Assembly (NCBI GenBank): GCA_035528375.1
Contig: DATKYS010000063.1
Location: 1 to 7,201 of the forward strand
DNA: 7,201 nucleotides
Reading direction: 5' to 3'
From: a bacterium
GTDB lineage: Bacteria; RBG-13-66-14
Below are positions 1-7,201 of the stretch, piece by piece; position 1 is the first letter of the stretch, and every line of letters begins with the position of its first letter. The position numbers and the translations under genes are program-made. The notes below the pieces were generated by a model. The model saw only the letters and a list, made by a program, of their open reading frames with translations. It did no database searches and was not told where the DNA came from.

Positions 1-57
1 GACTGACGGCGCGCCGTTTAGGTCGGCCCGCGGGCGACCGTGGACGGTCGCCCCTAC
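1..57. repeat. Hairpin repeat unit, cut by the left edge
   Basis: The right half is a perfect 10-bp stem (32-41 with 44-53, loop GG) followed by CCCCTAC. The left half (1-29) is the reverse complement of the GGGCCGACCTAAACGGC type seen at 5448-5485 and includes the palindrome ACGGCGCGCCGT (5-16 region). The outer end, expected to read GTAGGGG, lies outside the window. The right half recurs exactly at 7096-7128. This is a member of the window's hairpin repeat family; no function is shown. Confidence 0.8.
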
Positions 58-79
58 GGGATACTCTACGATTCATGGC

Positions 80-133
80 GTAGGGCGGGGATTTTAATCC
101 CCGCCGCGGCGGCCCGCAGAGGGGCCGCCCTAC
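80..133. repeat. Complete two-hairpin repeat unit
   Basis: The unit begins GTAGGG and ends CCCTAC, so its ends are complementary. Between them are two hairpins: a 10-bp stem 84-93 with 96-105 (loop TT) and an 8-bp stem 108-115 with 122-129. Folded as a single strand it would make a three-way junction closed by the terminal stem. The stem sequences differ from those of the other units. Confidence 0.85.
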
Positions 134-182
134 ACCGTCCAGTTGCGAATCACCCCCTCGGTCGGGACCGCGATAATTCACC

Positions 183-211
183 TTGAAATTCCCGAACTTT
201 CATGCTACCTT
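183..211 (+). promoter_or_regulatory. Sigma70-like promoter of the peroxiredoxin gene
   Basis: A -35 box TTGAAA (183-188) lies 17 nt before a -10 box TACCTT (206-211). The -10 is preceded by TGC, as in an extended -10. Transcription would start near 218, leaving a leader of about 30 nt before the ATG at 250. The TGCTA core resembles the promoter at 6257-6285. No operator was recognised. Confidence 0.5.
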
Positions 212-249
212 AACTATGTCTCAATAACAGGCGTACACAAGGAGGAAAC

Positions 250-768
250 ATGGCTCTCTTACCCATCGGCTCGAAAGCCCCCGACTTCACCGCCCGCGCC
301 CTCGTGGACGGCGAAGAGAAGAACTTCCGCCTCTCCGAAAACCGCGGGAAATGGGTGATTCTCTTCTTCTACCCCGAGGATTTTTCCGCCGTGTGCCCCA
401 CGGAGCTGCGGGCCTTCCGGGCGAACACGGCCCGGCTCAAGGAGCTGAACGCCGTCTTCGTCGCCGGCTCCACCGACGAAATCGAGAAACACAAGGAGTG
501 GCAGCGGGGCGACCTGGGAAACCTGCCCTACCCCCACTTCACCGACCGCGACGGGACCATCTCGAAGCTCTTCGGCACGTTCATGGAGGACGCCGGCATC
601 TCCACCCGCGGGACGTACATCATTGACCCCGAGGGCGTCGTCCGGGCCATCATGGTCACCGAGCCCAAGGTGGCCCGCTCGGTGGAGGAGACTCTGCGGC
701 TCATCGCGGCGTACCAGACCGGCGAGGCCTGCCCGGTGGACTGGCATCCCGGCGACCCGACGCTTTAA
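250..768 (+). CDS. 2-Cys peroxiredoxin (AhpC/TSA family)
   Basis: This is a thiol peroxidase that reduces hydrogen peroxide, organic peroxides or peroxynitrite in the cytoplasm, using a thioredoxin-like or AhpF-type reductant. Residues 36-52 contain the active-site stretch with FFYPEDF followed by VCPTE, making Cys49 the peroxidatic cysteine. Arg120 in RGTYIIDP matches the conserved active-site arginine, and Cys161 in GEACPVDWHPG matches the resolving cysteine of typical 2-Cys (AhpC/Prx1) enzymes. At 172 aa it is near but slightly below the usual length, and it ends right after GDPTL with no C-terminal YF segment. That segment and a canonical GGLG motif (here GDLG, 87-90) are linked to overoxidation sensitivity, so a robust enzyme is inferred. 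The start is set by AAGGAGG at 239-245. The gene has its own promoter and stands alone; no reductase gene is nearby. Family assignment is secure, the subfamily slightly less so. Confidence 0.95.
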   Translation: MALLPIGSKAPDFTARALVDGEEKNFRLSENRGKWVILFFYPEDFSAVCPTELRAFRANTARLKELNAVFVAGSTDEIEKHKEWQRGDLGNLPYPHFTDRDGTISKLFGTFMEDAGISTRGTYIIDPEGVVRAIMVTEPKVARSVEETLRLIAAYQTGEACPVDWHPGDPTL

Positions 769-789
769 AGGCCCGACTTTGGAAAATGT

Positions 790-827
790 GGGCGGACCTA
801 AACGGCGCGACGGCGGTCCGCCCCTAC
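790..827. repeat. Single-hairpin repeat unit after the peroxiredoxin gene
   Basis: A 9-bp stem GGGCGGACC (790-798) pairs with GGTCCGCCC (815-823), followed by CCTAC. The loop begins TAAACGGC as in the unit at 5448-5485. It lies about 20 nt after the peroxiredoxin stop. It has no T-run on the plus strand, so it may weaken read-through between the convergent genes but is not a convincing intrinsic terminator. Confidence 0.7.
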
Positions 828-857
828 GTTAAATTGTCGTCCATCGGAATTGACCTC

Positions 858-901
858 GTAGGGGCCGACCTTAAGGTCGGCCCGCAGAGGGGCCCCCCTA
901 C
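858..901. repeat. Repeat unit with a 20-bp perfect palindrome
   Basis: The unit begins GTAGGG (858) and ends CCCTAC (901). Positions 863-882 form the perfect palindrome GGCCGACCTTAAGGTCGGCC. The second half (CGCAGAGGGGCC, 883-894) resembles the same part of unit 80-133 but has lost most of its pairing. It lies 30 nt beyond the comEC stop, so it sits in the 3' region of that minus-strand gene. Confidence 0.8.
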
Positions 902-930
902 ACCGCACACGTGCCGCCCTCTACGCAATC

Positions 931-3318
931 CTATTCCAACACCAGCCCCACCGCCGGGGTGAAGTCGCCGTCGTAGCGCCCGAGGGTAAAAGTCCGCCCG
1001 TCGGTCTCCACCACGCAGGCCCCCCGCTCGCGGACGTCGTAGAGCCAGCAGCCCGCCGCCGCCAGCCGCCGGCTCACCACATCCGACAGGCGCCCCCGGT
1101 CCGGGAACACCACCCCGTGCCCCGGCCTGACTCCCAACAGGAACGCCTCCGTCGTCCCGGAGGCCGAGCCGTGGTGCGCGACCTTGAGGAGGTCCACCGC
1201 CTCGGGCTCCCAGCGGCCCAGGAGCCTGCGCTCCCCGGGCGCCTCCAGGTCCCCGGTCAACAGCGCCTCGAAATCCCCGTAGCGCAGCAGGAGGACCAGC
1301 GAGGCGTCGTTGATCGCCGTCCCCGCGGGTCGGGGCCGGTCGGACGCCGACAGGACGGTTATCTCGAGGTTTTCGTCCCGGGTCGGGATGCGCACACCGC
1401 AGGCGGGCAGGAGCACACGGGCCCCGGAGAGCCGCTCGGCGAGGAGGTAGGAGAGGTACGTCTCGGTGACCTGGTAGTCCGGCGGGCGGTAGACGCGCTC
1501 CACCTCGAAGCGCCCGAAGAGCGGGATGAGGCCCGAGCAGTGGTCCGAGTCGGGGTGGGTGAGGCAGACGGCGTCGAGCCCGGTGACGCCGCACCGGCGC
1601 AGGTACTCCGCCAGGGGCTCGGCGTAGTCCAGGCCGCCGTCTATGACTATCCGGTCGCCCGCCGGGCTCTCGACGAGGACCGCGTCGCCCCGGTCCACGG
1701 AGAAGAAGGTCAGCCGCAGTCGGTCCGGGGTGTCGTCGCGCGAGAGGTGCCAGCCCCAGAGTAGCGCCACGAGGCCCAGGGGGACGACCAGGACCGGCCC
1801 CCACTTTTTCTTCCCCCTCCGCCAGGCCCACCATGCGGCGCCGAAGAGCGCCAGGGTCGCCAGCACCAGCCAGATCGCCGGCTGGCGCAGGTCGGCGGTC
1901 ATCAGGGGGATGCGCGCGGCCCAGCTCACGAGGTCGTTCATCCCGCGCAGGACCAGCGAGAGCGGCGTTCCCAGGAACTGCGCCGCCGCCGGGACGCCGA
2001 CCGCCGAGGACGCCGCCACCAAAAGCAGGTAGGGAACGCCGACGGCCAGGGCGATGCCCACCAGGGGGATGACGACCAGGTTCGTCAGGAAGGCCAGGAT
2101 GGGCACCCGGGCGAAGTGGAGGGCCAGGAGGGGGTAGATGGCGAGCTGGGCGGCCAGTGTGGCCCCCAGGCCCTCGGCGATGAACCGCGGCACCTTTTTC
2201 CGCGTCATCCAGTCGGCCAGGGTCGGCGTCAACGCCGCGATGCCCGCCGCCGCCACGAAGGAGAGCTGGAAGGAGATGTCCCAGAGGGCGAGCGGGTTCA
2301 GCGCCAGGAGGAAGAGCCCCGCCGCGGCCACCGAGGTGCCCAGGTGGGCCGGCCGTCCCAGGAGCCTTCCCCCGAGGAAGAGGCCGGACATGAGGCAGGC
2401 CCGCAGCGCCGGCGCCCGCGCCCCGGTCAACAGGGTGAATCCGACTATGACCGCCAGGGCGAGGACGTACCGCCCCCGCCGCTTCAAGGGGAGCGCCCCG
2501 CCCAGGAGGAACGCCAGGTACCCGACGATGCCCACGTGGAGGCCGCTGACCGCCAGGATGTGGAATATCCCCGCGTCCCGGAAGCGCTCCAGGTCGTCCG
2601 GCTCGAGCTCGCCCCGGTCGCCGGTCAGAATCGCCCGGGCCAGCCCCCGCGCCTGGGGCTGGAGGGATTCGACGGCGCGGTCGTTGAGCCACTCACGCAG
2701 GCGGAGGAAGAGGGTCGCGGGGTCGTCGCGGGTTTTAGTGATTTCGACCGGGCCCGCGTCGCGCGCCCAGCCGGCCACCCTATTCGCCCGCAGGTACTCG
2801 CCGTAGTCGGGCACGAGCGGGTTGTCCGCCTCCCGGATCCCGCTCAGGTAGAACGCGCCCCGGAGGAGGTCCCCCGGGGAGAATTTTCGCCTATCGTCGC
2901 CGTACACGCCCAGGCTCAGGCGCGCGCCGGTCAGGTCCGCGAGGTCGTCCGGCGCTTCGGCGACCTCGACCCAGGCGCGCTCCCGTATCTCATCGCGGTC
3001 CACGGGGCCGACCACCCGGACGGTGAGCGTCACTTCGCCCAGCCCGCCGACCCGGGCCTCCATCGCCGCCTGATGCCCGAGGGCCCTCTCCGAGATTCCG
3101 GCCCCCGCCGCCAGGGCGACCACCAGCGCCAGCCCCAGGGCGAGCCTCGGCCTCCCCCGCCCGACGAGGAGGAAGGAGCCGGTCGCCGCCAGCGTGAGCG
3201 CCGGGGCCCACGCCGGACCGACGTCGAGCCAGCGGCCCGCCGCGATCCCGCAAGCGAAGGCCACCGCCAGGCCCACCAGTGGTGAACGCGGCGGTGGCGA
3301 TTTCGTGTCACGCAGCAC
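931..3318 (-). CDS. comEC: ComEC/Rec2 family DNA-uptake channel protein
   Basis: ComEC is the inner-membrane channel that brings single-stranded DNA into the cytoplasm during natural transformation. The N-terminus has hydrophobic segments (about 12-73) and then a soluble DUF4131-like region (about 90-200). The Competence domain follows, with FHILAVSGLHVGIV at 252-265 and many membrane helices to about 520. The C-terminus (about 532-795) is a metallo-beta-lactamase-like domain: VDRGDAVLVE (541-550), IDGG (559-562), HPDSDH (588-593), NDASLVLLL (670-678), LTGD (687-690) and LKVAHHGS (711-718). At 795 aa it has the full three-domain length. The usual GQGD reads DRGD, and the usual YGHP-type motif is not evident near 735-745, although metal-ligand motifs are present. 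The start is a GTG two nt after the lgt stop, with only a weak GAAGAAG-like ribosome site inside lgt, so translation is probably coupled to lgt. No other competence gene is in the window, so active transformation is not shown. Confidence 0.95.
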   Translation of the reverse strand: MLRDTKSPPPRSPLVGLAVAFACGIAAGRWLDVGPAWAPALTLAATGSFLLVGRGRPRLALGLALVVALAAGAGISERALGHQAAMEARVGGLGEVTLTVRVVGPVDRDEIRERAWVEVAEAPDDLADLTGARLSLGVYGDDRRKFSPGDLLRGAFYLSGIREADNPLVPDYGEYLRANRVAGWARDAGPVEITKTRDDPATLFLRLREWLNDRAVESLQPQARGLARAILTGDRGELEPDDLERFRDAGIFHILAVSGLHVGIVGYLAFLLGGALPLKRRGRYVLALAVIVGFTLLTGARAPALRACLMSGLFLGGRLLGRPAHLGTSVAAAGLFLLALNPLALWDISFQLSFVAAAGIAALTPTLADWMTRKKVPRFIAEGLGATLAAQLAIYPLLALHFARVPILAFLTNLVVIPLVGIALAVGVPYLLLVAASSAVGVPAAAQFLGTPLSLVLRGMNDLVSWAARIPLMTADLRQPAIWLVLATLALFGAAWWAWRRGKKKWGPVLVVPLGLVALLWGWHLSRDDTPDRLRLTFFSVDRGDAVLVESPAGDRIVIDGGLDYAEPLAEYLRRCGVTGLDAVCLTHPDSDHCSGLIPLFGRFEVERVYRPPDYQVTETYLSYLLAERLSGARVLLPACGVRIPTRDENLEITVLSASDRPRPAGTAINDASLVLLLRYGDFEALLTGDLEAPGERRLLGRWEPEAVDLLKVAHHGSASGTTEAFLLGVRPGHGVVFPDRGRLSDVVSRRLAAAGCWLYDVRERGACVVETDGRTFTLGRYDGDFTPAVGLVLE

Positions 3319-3320
3319 GG

Positions 3321-4226
3321 CTATTTCTTCTTCGCGCGCCTGGCCCTTTTCTCGCGCTCCCCACGGCGGCGGCGGACGGTCTCACACACCGCGGCGTACT
3401 CCACCGCCGGGTCCAGGAGCTTGCCCGCCTTCCGGGCGGCGAGCCAGCGCCAGACGACTATCCCGACCCCCAAGAGGAAGATGACGATTGAGATGACCTG
3501 GTTCTTGGACAAAAAACCGCCGAAGGCCCACATGTCTTCCTCGCGGAAGCGGAACTCCTCGATGAACAGGCGCCAGGCCCCGAAGAAGGCGATGGTTATC
3601 CCGAACAGCAGGCCGTGGAAGCGCTTCCACTTGCGCTCCACCAGAATCAGCAGGCCGAAGAGGGCGAACCCCGCCGCCGACTCGAAGAGCTGGGTGGGCA
3701 GGACCGGCGTGCCGGGCAGTATTCCGGTGCGCGGGGTGTAGTAGACCGGCGAGTTGTTGGGGAAGATCATCCCGAGCCAGGAGTCGGTGGCCCGGCCGAA
3801 GCAGCAGCCGTTGAAGAAGCAGCCGATGCGCGTCAGCCCCAGCCCCAGGCCCACCGAGGGCGCCACGATGTCCGTGATTTCCCACACGGGCAGCTTCTTG
3901 CGCCACAGGTAAACGAGCGACCCGACCAGGGCGAAGATGAACCCCCCGAAGAGCATCAGCCCGCCGTCCCAGATGCGCAGGAGCTGGACCCAGGGGTCGC
4001 CGTGGGCCGCGTACTGGTCGAAGTGGTAGATGAAGTGGAACAGCCGGGAGCCCACCACGGCGCAGATTAAAATCACCAGGGACAGGTCGTAGATGTGGCG
4101 GTGGTCTATGCCCCGGTTGCGGGCCCGCTGGGCGGCCAGAATCATCCCCAGGAAGAAGGACAGCGCCAGCATCAGGCCGTAGACCCGCAGCGTCAGCGGA
4201 CCGATGGTGAGAAGGGTGGGGTGCAT
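3321..4226 (-). CDS. lgt: Prolipoprotein diacylglyceryl transferase
   Basis: Lgt is an inner-membrane enzyme that moves the diacylglyceryl group of phosphatidylglycerol to the lipobox cysteine of prolipoproteins, the first step of lipoprotein maturation. The N-terminus MHPTLLTIGPLTLRVYGLML is typical and fixes the ATG start, although no clear Shine-Dalgarno site precedes it. Family marks are WDGGLMLFGG (86-95), the signature GLGLTRIGCFFNGCCFGR (128-145) containing the conserved arginine (R133), PTQLFES (177-183) and the RLFIEEFRFRE stretch (219-229). About seven membrane helices are visible. The histidine of the E. coli HGGL motif is replaced by phenylalanine and the E. coli NFIN-type signature reads CFFN, a variation I believe occurs in other phyla. 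At 301 aa it is slightly long because of a basic tail (284-301). It is first in an operon with comEC and has a good promoter at 4302-4274. The lipoprotein at 5624-6034 is a plausible substrate. Confidence 0.96.
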   Translation of the reverse strand: MHPTLLTIGPLTLRVYGLMLALSFFLGMILAAQRARNRGIDHRHIYDLSLVILICAVVGSRLFHFIYHFDQYAAHGDPWVQLLRIWDGGLMLFGGFIFALVGSLVYLWRKKLPVWEITDIVAPSVGLGLGLTRIGCFFNGCCFGRATDSWLGMIFPNNSPVYYTPRTGILPGTPVLPTQLFESAAGFALFGLLILVERKWKRFHGLLFGITIAFFGAWRLFIEEFRFREEDMWAFGGFLSKNQVISIVIFLLGVGIVVWRWLAARKAGKLLDPAVEYAAVCETVRRRRGEREKRARRAKKK

Positions 4227-4235
4227 GGTTTACGC

Positions 4236-4265
4236 TTGCCCGTCGGGGCGGTTTGGCGGTAAAGT
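4236..4265 (+). promoter_or_regulatory. Possible promoter of the dehydratase-like gene
   Basis: TTGCCC (4236-4241) and TAAAGT (4260-4265) are separated by 18 nt and would start transcription near 4272, about 40 nt before the ATG at 4314. The match is moderate. The -10 lies just left of the lgt -10 (4274-4279), so the two promoters interlock and polymerase binding at one would hinder the other. Confidence 0.35.
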
Positions 4266-4273
4266 TAAGCGTA

Positions 4274-4302
4274 ATCCTAGCCCCTGCCGGGCGATTAGTC
4301 AA
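4274..4302 (-). promoter_or_regulatory. Sigma70-like promoter of the lgt-comEC operon
   Basis: On the minus strand, TTGACT (4302-4297) and TAGGAT (4279-4274) are separated by exactly 17 nt. This is close to consensus and correctly placed, giving a leader of about 40 nt before the lgt ATG at 4226. Confidence 0.6.
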
Positions 4303-4313
4303 ACACTTTGCCC

Positions 4314-5312
4314 ATGAAAGACCCCAGGCTCGGCATCACCGCCACCGTCCCCTCCGAGGTCGCCCTGGCCGCGGGGCGCGCGCTGGTGGACCTGAACAAC
4401 GTCCTCGTCCGCGGGGAGAGCCCGGAGCGCGCCGTCCGCGAGGCGGAGTCCGCCGGTTTCCCGCGCAACTCCTGCGCCTGGATCAAGGGCGTATACGCCA
4501 CCATCCGCCGCCTGGGAATCCCCGAGGTCGTGGGCGTCAGCCGGGGGGATTGCAGCAACACCGAGGCCCTGCTGGAGATTCTGGCCGACGACGGCCTCGC
4601 CGCCGTGCCCTTTGCTTATCCGGAGAGTCGCTCGCCGGAGGAGCTTTCGCGAGCCCTGGAGCGCTTCGCCGCCCACCTCGGGACGAATCTGGAAGAGGCC
4701 GAACGGTGGCGGGGGCGGCTGGCCGGCGTCCGGGAGGATTTGAACCGGCTGGACGGGCTGGTCGTTCAGGGTAAAAGGCGGGACGCGGCCTACTTCGATC
4801 TGGCCCTCTCGGCGAGCGACTGGGGCGGCGACTTGGAGAGCTACGCGGCCGCGCTGGAGCGGGAGCTCGCCTCGGGGGACGAGCCTCCCCCCGCGCCGGT
4901 CCGCCTGGCCTACCTGGGCGTGCCGCCGGCCTTCACCGACCTGTTGGCGCGGACCGCCGAGTTCGGCGCGGCCTTCGTCTTCGCCGAGATACCCCGCCAG
5001 TTCACCATGCCCTACCGCTCGCCCGACCTCGTCGCGCAGTACCTCGCCTACACCTACCCCTACGGCATGGCCTTCCGGCTGGGGGACATCCTGCCCGAGG
5101 TGGAGAAGAGGGGGGTGGACGGCGTGGTCCACTACGTCCAGAGCTTCTGCTTCCGGCAGATCGAGGACATCCTGCTGCGGCGGCGGCTCGATCGCCGACC
5201 GATACTCACCCTGGAGGGTGACCGCCCGGGGCCGCTCACGGCGCGGGACCTGCTGCGCCTGGAGAGCTTCGTCGAGACGCTTTTATTGCACAAGCCCGGC
5301 GGGGGACTGTAG
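4314..5312 (+). CDS. 2-hydroxyacyl-CoA dehydratase-like protein (BcrB/HgdB superfamily)
   Basis: The protein resembles the catalytic subunits of 2-hydroxyacyl-CoA dehydratases and benzoyl-CoA reductases, which carry a [4Fe-4S] cluster and perform radical chemistry after ATP-driven electron transfer from an HgdC-type activator. Numbered from the ATG, it has only three cysteines, each in a family-like position: C54 in NSCAWIKG, C80 in GDCSNTEAL and C279 in YVQSFCFRQIED. These are the likely cluster ligands. The C-terminal TLEGD (299-303) matches the LExD-type motif. Length is 332 aa, close to the ~330 aa of this superfamily. The opening RLGITATVPSEVALAAG suits a widespread single-cluster subgroup of unknown substrate, distinct from double-cubane proteins, which have more cysteines. 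The ATG was preferred over a TTG at 4308; neither has a clear Shine-Dalgarno site. There is no partner subunit or activator in the window. The TAG stop lies inside a repeat that begins at 5309. The superfamily call is firm; the substrate is unknown. Confidence 0.85.
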   Translation: MKDPRLGITATVPSEVALAAGRALVDLNNVLVRGESPERAVREAESAGFPRNSCAWIKGVYATIRRLGIPEVVGVSRGDCSNTEALLEILADDGLAAVPFAYPESRSPEELSRALERFAAHLGTNLEEAERWRGRLAGVREDLNRLDGLVVQGKRRDAAYFDLALSASDWGGDLESYAAALERELASGDEPPPAPVRLAYLGVPPAFTDLLARTAEFGAAFVFAEIPRQFTMPYRSPDLVAQYLAYTYPYGMAFRLGDILPEVEKRGVDGVVHYVQSFCFRQIEDILLRRRLDRRPILTLEGDRPGPLTARDLLRLESFVETLLLHKPGGGL

Positions 5313-5361
5313 GGGCCGACATGCGGTCGGCCCGCGGACGGGTGTGGACACCCGCCCCTAC
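5309..5361. repeat. Complete two-hairpin repeat unit overlapping a stop codon
   Basis: The unit starts GTAGGGG and ends CCCCTAC. Hairpin one pairs GGGCCGAC (5313-5320) with GTCGGCCC (5326-5333). Hairpin two pairs CGGGTGT (5339-5345) with ACACCCG (5348-5354) around a GG loop. The TAG of the opening GTAGGGG is the stop codon (5310-5312) of the upstream gene. The closing CCCCTAC runs into ATCATCGCAGCC (to 5373), a motif shared with 5479-5497 and 7010-7028. Confidence 0.85.
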
Positions 5362-5392
5362 ATCATCGCAGCCGGGTAGAGGGTTGCAGCGG

Positions 5393-5431
5393 CCCCCCTC
5401 TCCCCGTGGGAGAGGGGATGGGGGTGAGGGC
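5393..5431. repeat. 39-bp CCCTCTCCCC...GGGTGAGGG repeat, copy 1
   Basis: This is identical over 39 bp to 6938-6976. It contains a 10-bp stem CCCCTCTCCC (5395-5404) with GGGAGAGGGG (5408-5417), loop CGT, then GATGGGGGTGAGGGC. A diverged relative lies at 5513-5560. Repeats with this CTCTCCC...GGGAGAGGG look occur in intergenic regions of many bacteria; their role here is unknown. Confidence 0.85.
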
Positions 5432-5447
5432 TTCCTTATAATGAAGC

Positions 5448-5485
5448 GGGCCGACCTAAACGGCTTGCCGTCGGTCGGCCCCTAC
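5448..5485. repeat. Single-hairpin repeat unit with nested inner palindrome
   Basis: GGGCCGACC (5448-5456) pairs with GGTCGGCCC (5473-5481). The loop holds a second small stem, ACGGC/GCCGT. The unit ends CCTAC and is followed by GTCATCGCAGCC. Compared with 790-827, the fifth base pair of the stem is C-G instead of G-C while flanks and loop start are alike. It is preceded by CCTTATAATGAAGC, a weaker version of the A/T run found before other hairpins. Confidence 0.75.
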
Positions 5486-5512
5486 GTCATCGCAGCCGTA
5501 GAGGTACGTGTC

Positions 5513-5560
5513 TCCCTCTCCCTGTGGGAGCGGCGCGCCGAAGGGACCAAGGGTGAGGGC
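5513..5560. repeat. Diverged CCCTCTCCC...GGGTGAGGGC repeat
   Basis: This shares CCCTCTCCC, GTGGGAG and GGGTGAGGGC with the 39-bp repeats, but the stretch between GTGGGAG and GGGTGAGGGC is 20 nt instead of 9 and includes CGGCGCGCCG. It then continues CACCTTATAAAAACGGGC as copy 2 does at 6977-6993. It appears to be an older or different version of the same module. Confidence 0.65.
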
Positions 5561-5564
5561 CACC

Positions 5565-5596
5565 TTATAAAAACGGGCGGGCCCAAAAACCCGCCC
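5565..5596 (-). terminator. Intrinsic terminator of the lipoprotein gene
   Basis: Read on the minus strand, GGGCGGG (5596-5590) pairs with CCCGCCC (5581-5575) across an 8-nt loop and is followed by GTTTTTATAAGG (5574 downward). It lies about 28 nt past the stop of the 5624-6034 gene and in the right orientation. The hairpin is itself part of the repeat module, with CCCCCACATCAGCGCA (5594-5609) as a degenerate form of the module's end motif. Confidence 0.75.
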
Positions 5597-5623
5597 CCAC
5601 ATCAGCGCATACGCCGCGCCGCC

Positions 5624-6034
5624 CTAACCCTCCATCTCGAACACGAACCAGCCGAATTCGTTCCGCACCACCTCGAACGTGACCTTTTCCGTATCCTTCT
5701 GGCCGTCCTGGACGATGGTGACCTCCGTCTCCACCCGGGCGACCTCCAGGACGTCCACCCCCTCCTCGGAGACCTCCTCGGACTTCGTGAGCTTGGGCTC
5801 GGTCCATTCCTCGACCGACACGGCGCCCGACTCCACGTCGCCCCACATGTCGTAGAAGCGCTCCTGCATGTCCGTCTCCTGATTCCCCGAGTAGATGGTC
5901 ATCAGGGCGGCTTCCTTGTCCTTGTCCCTGAGCGCCTGGAGGAAACGGTCCACGGTCCCCTCCGGGCTCCCGGTCTCGCCGCAGGCCAGAACGAACAGGA
6001 CAACCGCGAAAACGGACAGGATAACCTTCTTCAT
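5624..6034 (-). CDS. Small predicted lipoprotein, NTF2-like/DUF4878-type
   Basis: The 136-aa product begins MKKVILSVFAVVLFVLAC, a short basic n-region, a hydrophobic core and a lipobox-like VLAC with Cys18 as the predicted lipidated residue. After signal peptidase II cleavage it would be membrane-anchored and face the periplasm or outside. The mature part opens GSPEGTVDRFLQALRDKDKE, a helix pattern typical of the DUF4878/NTF2-like lipoproteins, followed by an acidic region and beta-rich segments ending GWFVFEMEG. That family link is only by look. The ATG at 6034 is chosen because GGAGGTG precedes it, and because an upstream ATG at 6085 would fall within the -10 box of the promoter at 6113-6084. 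The gene is monocistronic, with a promoter upstream and a terminator downstream. The specific function is unknown. Confidence 0.85.
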   Translation of the reverse strand: MKKVILSVFAVVLFVLACGETGSPEGTVDRFLQALRDKDKEAALMTIYSGNQETDMQERFYDMWGDVESGAVSVEEWTEPKLTKSEEVSEEGVDVLEVARVETEVTIVQDGQKDTEKVTFEVVRNEFGWFVFEMEG

Positions 6035-6037
6035 CTT

Positions 6038-6044
6038 CACCTCC
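6038..6044 (-). promoter_or_regulatory. Ribosome binding site that fixes the lipoprotein start
   Basis: On the minus strand GGAGGTG precedes the ATG at 6034, with 5 nt between GGAGG and the start. It supports the MKKVIL start over the longer in-frame version beginning at 6085. Confidence 0.8.
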
Positions 6045-6083
6045 GGGGTCGGGGTTGACGTGTGCGAGCCCTGTGCACGCCCC

Positions 6084-6113
6084 ATGCTAACTCACGCCGC
6101 CGAGCCGTGTCAA
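6084..6113 (-). promoter_or_regulatory. Sigma70-like promoter of the lipoprotein gene
   Basis: On the minus strand a perfect TTGACA (6113-6108) and TAGCAT (6089-6084) are separated by 18 nt. Transcription would begin near 6077, giving a leader of about 40 nt to the start at 6034. Confidence 0.65.
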
Positions 6114-6256
6114 AGGGCCGCCCCCGACGCGCCGTCCGTTCATAAAGAGACACGATTTCGGATAAAATCTCAGGAAAATGCCGGACGAAACCCACCGGTC
6201 TCCGGGCGAAGTTTCCGCCCCCACAGCGCCTTTCCGGCCCCCGGAGAGAAATTTTG
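6114..6256. other. Divergent intergenic stretch with nothing recognised
   Basis: This lies between the two divergent promoters of the lipoprotein gene and the membrane-protein gene. It has a short A/T-richer patch (about 6140-6180) and no repeat unit, clear hairpin or supported gene. It could hold an upstream control site, but no operator is evident. Confidence 0.5.
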
Positions 6257-6285
6257 TTGCCTTGGGCCCCCCGATTTGCTATCCT
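6257..6285 (+). promoter_or_regulatory. Sigma70-like promoter of the four-helix membrane protein
   Basis: TTGCCT (6257-6262) is 17 nt from TATCCT (6280-6285), with TGC directly before the -10 box. Transcription would start near 6292, giving a leader of about 75 nt that includes a run of seven T (6318-6324 region). The arrangement is like that of the peroxiredoxin promoter. Confidence 0.6.
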
Positions 6286-6366
6286 CTTGTTGTCTTAGTG
6301 ATTTGACCCTGATGTGCTTTTTTTCAACTCTTCCGTAGCGTATACCCGAACAACCGGAGGTCACGT

Positions 6367-6777
6367 ATGTATTGGCTTTACTTCGTCATCCTGATCATCG
6401 GCGGTATCCTCGGCGCGGCCGGCCTAATCATCAAGAACAAGCCCTCCGCCGCCGAGCTCATCGGCAAGCTCACCCCCTGGCAGGGATGGATCGGTATCCT
6501 TCTGCTCCTCTGGGGCATCTGGGACCTGATCGGGTCCTTCTCCCTGCTGGCCCTCGGCCTGATCGGCATCTTCTACCTGGCCACCGCCTGCGTCGAGATC
6601 GTCCTTGGGTTCCTGCTGGGCTTCAGCCTGATCGCCAAGTACACCGGCGAGAAGGGCGAGAAGATATTCAAAGCCGTCTCACCCTTCCAGGGCATCTTCG
6701 GTATCATCGCCATCCTGCTCGGTCTCTTCTGGCTGCTTACCGGTTTCGGTATTTTCAATTTCCTCTTCATCGCCTAA
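6367..6777 (+). CDS. Small four-helix membrane protein made of two homologous halves
   Basis: I do not recognise a named family. The 136-aa product has about four hydrophobic segments: 3-22, 40-58, 59-90 (possibly one long or re-entrant) and 107-135. The two halves align at an offset of 69 residues. Residues 35-54 (LTPWQGWIGILLLL and on) match 104-123 (VSPFQGIFGIIAIL and on), with the P-aromatic-QG and later G positions kept. The helix before each (G12, G16 against G81, G85) also lines up. This indicates an internal duplication. A charged loop, KYTGEKGEK (91-99), joins the last two helices. There is no signal peptide cleavage site or catalytic motif. The start is fixed by GGAGGT at 6356-6361, 5 nt before the ATG. 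It has its own promoter and a strong terminator, so it is a single-gene unit. An integral inner-membrane location is inferred; function is unknown. Confidence 0.85.
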   Translation: MYWLYFVILIIGGILGAAGLIIKNKPSAAELIGKLTPWQGWIGILLLLWGIWDLIGSFSLLALGLIGIFYLATACVEIVLGFLLGFSLIAKYTGEKGEKIFKAVSPFQGIFGIIAILLGLFWLLTGFGIFNFLFIA

Positions 6778-6796
6778 GCGCCGGAGAAACGAACGG

Positions 6797-6827
6797 AAGG
6801 GCGGTCCACCGGGCCGCCCTTTTTATT
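6797..6827 (+). terminator. Intrinsic terminator of the membrane-protein gene
   Basis: AAGGGCGG (6797-6804) pairs with CCGCCCTT (6814-6821), extended by a T-G wobble and two C-G pairs around an ACC loop, and followed by TTTTTATT. It begins 20 nt after the stop codon and is a textbook Rho-independent terminator. Confidence 0.9.
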
Positions 6828-6872
6828 GGGTGGATGGAAACGCGCCGAGGACGGGGCGACCCGCACATCTTT

Positions 6873-6908
6873 TTATAAAAATGGGGCGGTCCAACCGGGC
6901 CGCCCTTT
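6873..6908. terminator. Second, near-identical hairpin with an A/T run upstream
   Basis: GGGCGG (6884-6889) pairs with CCGCCC (6900-6905), with the same wobble and inner pairs as the first terminator but one extra loop base. It is preceded by TTTTTATAAAAAT, so on the minus strand it reads as hairpin plus T-run; on the plus strand only TTTGATAA follows. It may act as a back-up or as a minus-strand terminator. Confidence 0.55.
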
Positions 6909-6937
6909 GATAATCCGACGGGCCGCGCCGTGAGCGC

Positions 6938-6976
6938 CCCCCCTCTCCCCGTGGGAGAGGGGATGGGGGTGAGGGC
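6938..6976. repeat. 39-bp CCCTCTCCCC...GGGTGAGGG repeat, copy 2
   Basis: This is an exact copy of 5393-5431, including the 10-bp stem (6940-6949 with 6953-6962). It is followed by CACCTTAAAAAAACGGGCC and then a hairpin unit, the same order as at 5513-5600. Positions 6778-7201 otherwise contain terminators and repeats and no gene that I can support. Confidence 0.85.
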
Positions 6977-6982
6977 CACCTT

Positions 6983-7016
6983 AAAAAAACGGGCCGACCT
7001 GAAGGTCGGCCCCTAC
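6983..7016 (-). terminator. Repeat hairpin reading as a minus-strand terminator
   Basis: A perfect 10-bp stem GGGCCGACCT (6991-7000) with AGGTCGGCCC (7003-7012) has a GA loop. On the minus strand it is followed by G and seven T. The outer side reads CCCCTACATCATCGCAACC (7010-7028), the module's end motif. A minus-strand gene to the right of the window would be its natural user, but that is not visible. Confidence 0.6.
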
Positions 7017-7073
7017 ATCATCGCAACCTGGGGTGAGGAGTGCAGCGGTCCCCTCCCCACAAATTGCGATGAC

Positions 7074-7127
7074 GTAGGGGCGGGTCTCCAGACCCGCCCG
7101 CGGGCGACCGTGGACGGTCGCCCCTAC
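7074..7127. repeat. Complete two-hairpin repeat unit
   Basis: GTAGGGG and CCCCTAC ends flank two perfect 10-bp hairpins: 7078-7087 with 7090-7099 (loop CC) and 7102-7111 with 7114-7123 (loop GG). The second half is an exact copy of the unit at the left edge (26-58). It is preceded by TTGCGATGAC, the inverted form of the GTCATCGCA motif that follows other units. Confidence 0.85.
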
Positions 7128-7146
7128 GAGATATTGAGCGTTTTAC

Positions 7147-7174
7147 ATAAAAGGGCGGGACAAGAGCCCCGCCC
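7147..7174 (-). terminator. Possible minus-strand terminator
   Basis: GGGCGGG (7153-7159) pairs with CCCGCCC (7168-7174) across an 8-nt loop. On the minus strand the stem is followed by TTTTATGTAAAA. It resembles the lipoprotein terminator at 5565-5596. Its gene, if any, lies past the right edge. Confidence 0.45.
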
Positions 7175-7201
7175 GTGCAGTTTCGATATTTCGGCCCCGA
7201 C

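Follow-up and report, generated by a model that had tools for sequence, protein, structure and literature searches.

The window analysed here is a stretch of 7,201 nucleotides, the whole of contig G000:C63 in a bacterial genome of 2.63 Mb and 144 contigs. It contains a set of hairpins that share their ends, running from GTAGGG to CCCTAC, while their stems vary and stay complementary. The question raised by this locus is what these hairpins are and how the pairing of such variable arms is kept; an earlier note had proposed either that structure is under selection or that both arms are rewritten together by a copying process. The units are GTAG-type REP elements, many of them arranged as head-to-head BIME/REPIN pairs, in an uncultured bacterium and three relatives of its genus. 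To the explanation as a whole, that they are GTAG-superfamily REPs/BIMEs made mobile by TnpA_REP (RAYT), we assign a probability of about 0.9.

Nine REP units are present in the window, all in intergenic stretches and none inside a gene. The hairpin coordinates of the earlier note are correct, and the units that it named are real, partial forms included; one degenerate unit, at 5575-5600, had been missed. Three full units run from GTAGGG to CCCTAC and fold as two adjacent hairpins each, namely 80-133 (GGCGGGGATT-TT at 80-105 on the plus strand and GGCGGCCC-CTCTGC at 108-133 on the minus strand), 5309-5361 (GGGCCGAC-ATGCG at 5309-5333, plus, and GGGCGGGTGT-CC at 5336-5361, minus) and 7074-7127 (GGGCGGGTCT-CC at 7074-7099, plus, and GGGCGACCGT-CC at 7102-7127, minus). 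Their DNA folding energies are -22.3, -17.7 and -23.6 kcal/mol, respectively, with z scores of -3.1 to -5.2 against dinucleotide shuffles, and each of the eight window units that were folded is more stable than nearly all of its own shuffles. The 54-mer at 80-133 has an identical copy at G000:C79:22171. The partial unit at 1-57 is a head-to-head pair truncated by the contig start (a long-loop class remnant at 1-29 and the GGGCGACCGT-CC class at 32-57, minus strand), and 858-901 is a pair with a fused or degenerate right half (GGGCCGACCT-TA at 858-883, plus, and a remnant at 876-901, minus). The single-hairpin forms at 790-827, 5448-5485 and 6991-7016 are all read on the minus strand. The first two are long-loop REPs, of which 5448-5485 carries the stem GGGCCGACC and a 16-nt apex with an inner hairpin, and the third is GGGCCGACCT-TC followed by GTTTTTTT, a terminator-like arrangement. 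The unit at 5575-5600 (minus strand) has a GTGG foot, 4 mismatches to its class and a T run behind it; it is also terminator-like and lies just beyond the 3' end of a minus-strand reading frame, 5624-6034, which encodes a small unnamed protein.

The remaining genes of the window are those for a peroxiredoxin (250-768), comEC (931-3318, minus strand), lgt (3321-4226, minus strand), and a 2-hydroxyglutaryl-CoA dehydratase D-component-like protein (4308-5312), together with 6367-6777, which encodes a small hydrophobic protein assigned to no family. At 5309-5312, the dehydratase-like gene takes its TAG stop from the GTAG foot of a REP pair, whereas in relatives a TGA nearby serves as the stop. Three same-genus genomes lack this pair, 5309-5361, at the equivalent site, where the flanks are too diverged to give an exact empty site. 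The peroxiredoxin, as a synteny anchor, found no match in the three same-genus genomes. Three more GC-rich hairpins (6797-6820, 6884-6907 and 7153-7174), which have T-rich DNA after or around them and no GTAG foot, look like ordinary terminators or decayed REPs.

Beyond the window, a genome-wide collection of GTAGGG-N36-50-CCCTAC segments, as the earlier note had advised, returned 70 places, compared with 14 for the same pattern read backwards. In a sample of contigs totalling 630 kb, 356 hairpins have a GTAG foot, compared with 16-114 for each of ten other tetranucleotides, and a class-consensus scan that does not require pairing found 352 REP copies in the same 630 kb; these contigs were picked for holding pairs, and the REP density in them is not a genome average. 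In total, 814 kb of this genome and 794 kb of a same-genus relative were sampled. In DNA alignable with a relative (86% identity), REPs occur at 1.72/kb where conservation is interrupted and at 0.02/kb within the conserved blocks. The elements are palindromes of 20-40 nt with GTAG at one foot, dispersed, extragenic and in high copy, as is typical of GTAG-superfamily REPs. GTAGGG...CCCTAC pairs number 42-48 in the three other same-genus genomes and 0-6 in the three other genomes of the family. Among corresponding intergenic intervals with REPs, eight have them in this genome only, five in the relative only and six in both. In 98% of the near-perfect copies (sampled REPs, L017-L056), GTAG is preceded by C or T, a sequence preference that suggests an extended foot or a cut-site requirement; the CT cut site of E. 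coli is not the rule here.

The genome contains one Y1_Tnp (Y1 transposase) gene, in single copy, on contig G000:C91; its product has 157 aa. TnpA_REP (RAYT) is a HuH/tyrosine nuclease related to the IS200/IS605 transposases, and the protein encoded here is a member of the TnpA_REP/RAYT family with HuH and Tyr motifs. It scores 109.4 bits against NF047646, "REP-associated tyrosine transposase," above the NCBIfam curated cut-off of 80, and its nearest PDB chain is E. coli TnpA_REP (4er8, E 3e-8), in an alignment that covers the HLH and YI..NP region. An IS200/IS605 transposon was considered and rejected, given 42.3 bits against NF033573 (cut-off 55) and the single gene copy. The gene is located between purF and purM (neighbors named from sequence) and is flanked by hairpins of the same kind: GTAG-GGGCGGACCT-TC-AGGTCCGCCC on one side and, on the other, a long-loop hairpin, GGGCCGACC...GGTCGGCCC-CTAC, which has the build of window units 790-827 and 5448-5485 and belongs to the class of the latter. 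The purF-purM gap of the same-genus genome G001 holds two REPs of another class and no RAYT gene. The hairpins are probably copied around the genome by this small transposase, by analogy with the TnpA_REP cleavage known from other species. REPs would in that case be miniature mobile DNAs recognized as single-stranded hairpins by the RAYT, which would bind the GTAG foot and the folded hairpin, cut and rejoin the strand, and thereby spread copies.

The nearest RAYT relatives found are in Chloroflexi-named MAGs, and GTAG hairpins flank RAYTs in many other MAGs. In a tree of 54 RAYTs with their flanking hairpins, the clade of the RAYT described here has mostly a 10-bp stem with a CTTYAG apex and varied outer stems; the CTTYAG label changes 4 times on the tree, compared with a shuffled mean of 11.9 and minimum of 8. 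Mantel tests against RAYT distance were significant for apex and outer stem alike, so that a role of the apex beyond that of the stem is not supported and only the clade-level CTTYAG label is informative. The same-genus RAYTs form a separate clade, whose flanking hairpins are GTCCAC, TCCT-type and GGCGGGGACTTTAG, and all three of these classes occur in the window's genome too. The genome thus probably carries REPs of several RAYT lineages, and much of the stem diversity is probably due to several RAYT/REP lineages mixed in one genome. It has lost, or never had, RAYTs of those three classes; as only one RAYT stands beside several abundant apex classes, the loss step is an inference. The mixed-lineage reading is in line with RAYT loss as modelled by Nunvar et al. 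(PMC3686654). The stem mixture would reflect several RAYT/REP lineages, some now without a RAYT, together with an avoidance of identical halves.

This avoidance was seen when the halves of the pairs were compared. Among 66 head-to-head pairs, the spacer is 2 nt long in 56; these are two inverted REPs at regular spacing, as in a REPIN or BIME. Identical halves were found in none of the 58 tight pairs, against 6.6 expected by re-pairing (P 0.001), and in none of the 58 tail-to-tail neighbors, against 7.2 expected. Two identical halves would form a perfect palindrome of ~50 bp, and instability of long perfect palindromes is the simplest explanation, one that Di Nocera et al. (PMC3733652) suggested for heterodimers. 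The deficit could also be explained by the copying of a few ancestral heterodimers or by assembly loss of perfect palindromes.

The variable yet complementary stems reported in the earlier note hold up as covariation between classes. A first covariation run had used hand-picked perfect hairpins and was biased by construction, and it was therefore repeated on 30 distinct units of 54 nt, for which the outer 6 nt were the sole criterion of choice, regardless of pairing. Among these 30 units, 93.8% of the stem cells are paired, compared with 71.4% after shuffling (maximum 74.8%), and the covariation score is 0.56, compared with 0.14 for shuffled units; sliding the register abolishes the signal. 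Within classes the pattern is different. Of 193 stem pairs with a change, 170 carry it on one side; in the remainder both sides are altered, with pairing kept in 13 (mostly in small sub-classes) and lost in 10. The within-class outcomes comprise 49 G-T changes, which keep a wobble pair, 38 A-C changes and 83 others. One-sided changes, with G-T about as frequent as A-C, argue against selection for pairing at each locus, and selection on RNA pairing of each copy found no support in the scan that made no demand for pairing. Selection for structure, as first suggested, is consistent with the covariation between classes and opposed, as a per-locus process, by the changes within them (170 against 13). 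Pairing looks like a property of spreading sources and not of each resident copy, which suggests that the structure is kept in those sources via transposition. Selection would act when a unit is copied, as TnpA_REP takes the hairpin for its substrate; arms would covary since only well-folding sources spread, and single copies would later decay without compensation.

The second proposal of the earlier note, that copying rewrites the two arms, finds limited but real support in flank-matched copies with altered tips. A process on the hairpin itself could rewrite arms in place and generate stem and tip diversity besides that of separate lineages, by tip cutting and repair, by slippage or template switching at the inner hairpin, or by RAYT-driven hairpin swapping. 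It is compatible with the mobile REP explanation and adds to it, and we place it at somewhat under even odds. In the 214-bp duplicate shared by contigs C65 and C66, which is near-identical outside the hairpins, three of the four REP tips nevertheless differ, two hairpins by GTGG/GACG-type changes and a third almost completely (CTGGCG/GTCCAC). Recent duplicates have mismatches at 12.9% in tips, 2.1% in lower stems and 7.4% elsewhere; independent cases are few, however, and the tip excess comes largely from that one duplicate pair. Several flank-matched copies differ by the presence or absence of an 11-13-nt inner hairpin (L049:17648/17853, L026:16023/L049:17594, L018:9992/L028:12340 and, between species, L052:11291/L255:10391), and one whole-class swap is seen in similar flanks (L017:13826 against L049:17648).

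Within the window, the paired swap between 790-827 and 5448-5485 (GGGCGGACC/GGTCCGCCC against GGGCCGACC/GGTCGGCCC) is real, though the similarity of flanks claimed for the two units extends to the CCCCTACGT foot only and the outer flanks differ. Unit 790-827, the sole copy of its kind across the 630-kb sample, has its outer stem changed from C-G to G-C relative to its class; its 6-nt inner arm is inverted relative to 5448-5485 and the class, reading GACGGC where the class has the exact reverse complement, GCCGTC, a feature overlooked in the first reading. Several points weigh against in-place rewriting: three of the flank-matched pairs show no difference, apparent whole-hairpin swaps can result from independent insertions into one preferred site of a shared composite flank, and assembly errors at hairpins or mixed strains could explain tip differences in a small sample of fragmented assemblies. 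The data suggest a working hypothesis in which slippage, strand switching or tip processing alters the hairpin tips. We tentatively propose that the tip is altered together with the inner arms, as one block, by gain or loss, inversion or replacement of the inner hairpin, while the foot, outer stem and flanks stay, and that new REP classes could arise in this way. The change of REP class at a RAYT, or REP "orthoswitching," is recorded as a process of unknown mechanism, and in-place rewriting, if true, would supply one.

A role as structured RNA (in terminators, mRNA 3' ends or small RNAs), with pairing selected at each locus, is an unlikely explanation of the hairpins. Their intergenic placement, often at gene ends, is consistent with such a role, as are a T-rich stretch after the hairpin in 76 of 352 copies, compared with 6 for the mirror-image A-rich stretch before it, and the three minus-strand terminator-like matches in the window, which are REPs or REP-like hairpins. 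On the other hand, the stem mutations within classes are one-sided without a clear G-T bias, the REPs at corresponding intervals are often present in one species only, the same hairpins flank the RAYT gene, and the sole match in an Rfam search, the SorY sRNA, was rejected as noise (26.7 bits, far under the gathering threshold of 111). Judging from the T runs, transcription termination may be a side effect in about a fifth of the REP copies. That the repeats are assembly artefacts or chance GC-rich palindromes has a negligible probability: the genomes are fragmented assemblies in which some contigs break at these repeats or begin in them (C63, C98, C99 and C101), but counts far above those of the reversed pattern and of other tags, the same classes in a separate same-genus genome, the equal frequency of pairs in all three such genomes and the GTAG hairpins beside RAYTs in many other MAGs all argue against it.

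The earlier note knew of no settled function for such repeats, which is fair for a function in the host; good descriptions exist of both the family and the enzyme that goes with it (PMC3733652; PMC3686654; PMC8266576). In common with the GTAG-superfamily REPs/BIMEs of Di Nocera 2013 (PMC3733652), the elements have a GTAG foot and a short stem-loop, with an inner hairpin in some loops; they are intergenic, in high copy and arranged as head-to-head heterodimers, their GTAG gives TAG stop codons, and complementary stem changes occur among subclasses. They differ from these in having many stem classes in one genome with a single RAYT, tight pairs (2-nt spacer) in which classes are combined freely, and many copies coupled to a second hairpin repeat. 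As in Pseudomonas and Stenotrophomonas (Bertels & Rainey 2011, PMC3116915; Nunvar 2013, PMC3686654), REPs come in paired units, the RAYT is flanked by its own REPs, REP classes occur without their RAYT, and the REP class changes at a RAYT. Pseudomonas REPINs have a longer, hairpin-forming intervening sequence in place of the 2-nt spacer, and the affinity of the RAYT to Chloroflexi-named MAGs and the in-place tip changes between flank-matched copies set the present system apart. E. coli TnpA_REP and its REPs (Corneloup 2021, PMC8266576; PDB 4er8) share the HuH motif (HLH), the Tyr region and GTAG-footed hairpins adjoining the gene; that enzyme requires a bulge in its REPs, whereas the REPs here are near-perfect palindromes without a bulge and in this are closer to group 3 REPs. 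A dense and diverse GTAG REP system with its RAYT is now described in an uncultured lineage; it is a member of a well-described kind and good material for one open question. It provides evidence between two readings of hairpin covariation, with pairing seemingly kept in the spreading sources and not at each site, and flank-matched copies with almost only the tip changed make REP class switching in both arms testable.

Several minor observations concern neighboring repeats and other genomes. A second hairpin repeat, CCCTCTCCC-ACG-GGGAGAGGG with GGGTGAGGG, adjoins many REPs and lies in the window at 5390-5441, 5512-5570 and 6933-6986. The order of the composite is TGCGATGAY-REP-GTTTTT..AAGGNRGCCCTCACCC, and its downstream flank was found in 35 sampled copies with 22 different REP cores. 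Several REP classes have mini-hairpins of 12-13 nt (GTAGGACGAGTCC, GACGGCGCGCCG and GTGGGATGCATCC) nested at their apex (5448-5485; L049:17594-17632; L018:3591), one of these mini-hairpins itself starting with GTAG, and an insert similar to them, GTCGGCGCGCCG, is found within the second hairpin repeat. The relative G002 has multiple copies (C92, C93 and C96) of a truncated class, GTAG-GGGCGATGAGTCCACGGTCGCCC, in which the upper stem is broken; either this class is still spreading or the same deletion recurs. The distant genome G029 holds 22 GTAGGG...CCCTAC pairs, with mostly unrelated stems, and 13 RAYT-like matches, another rich REP system.
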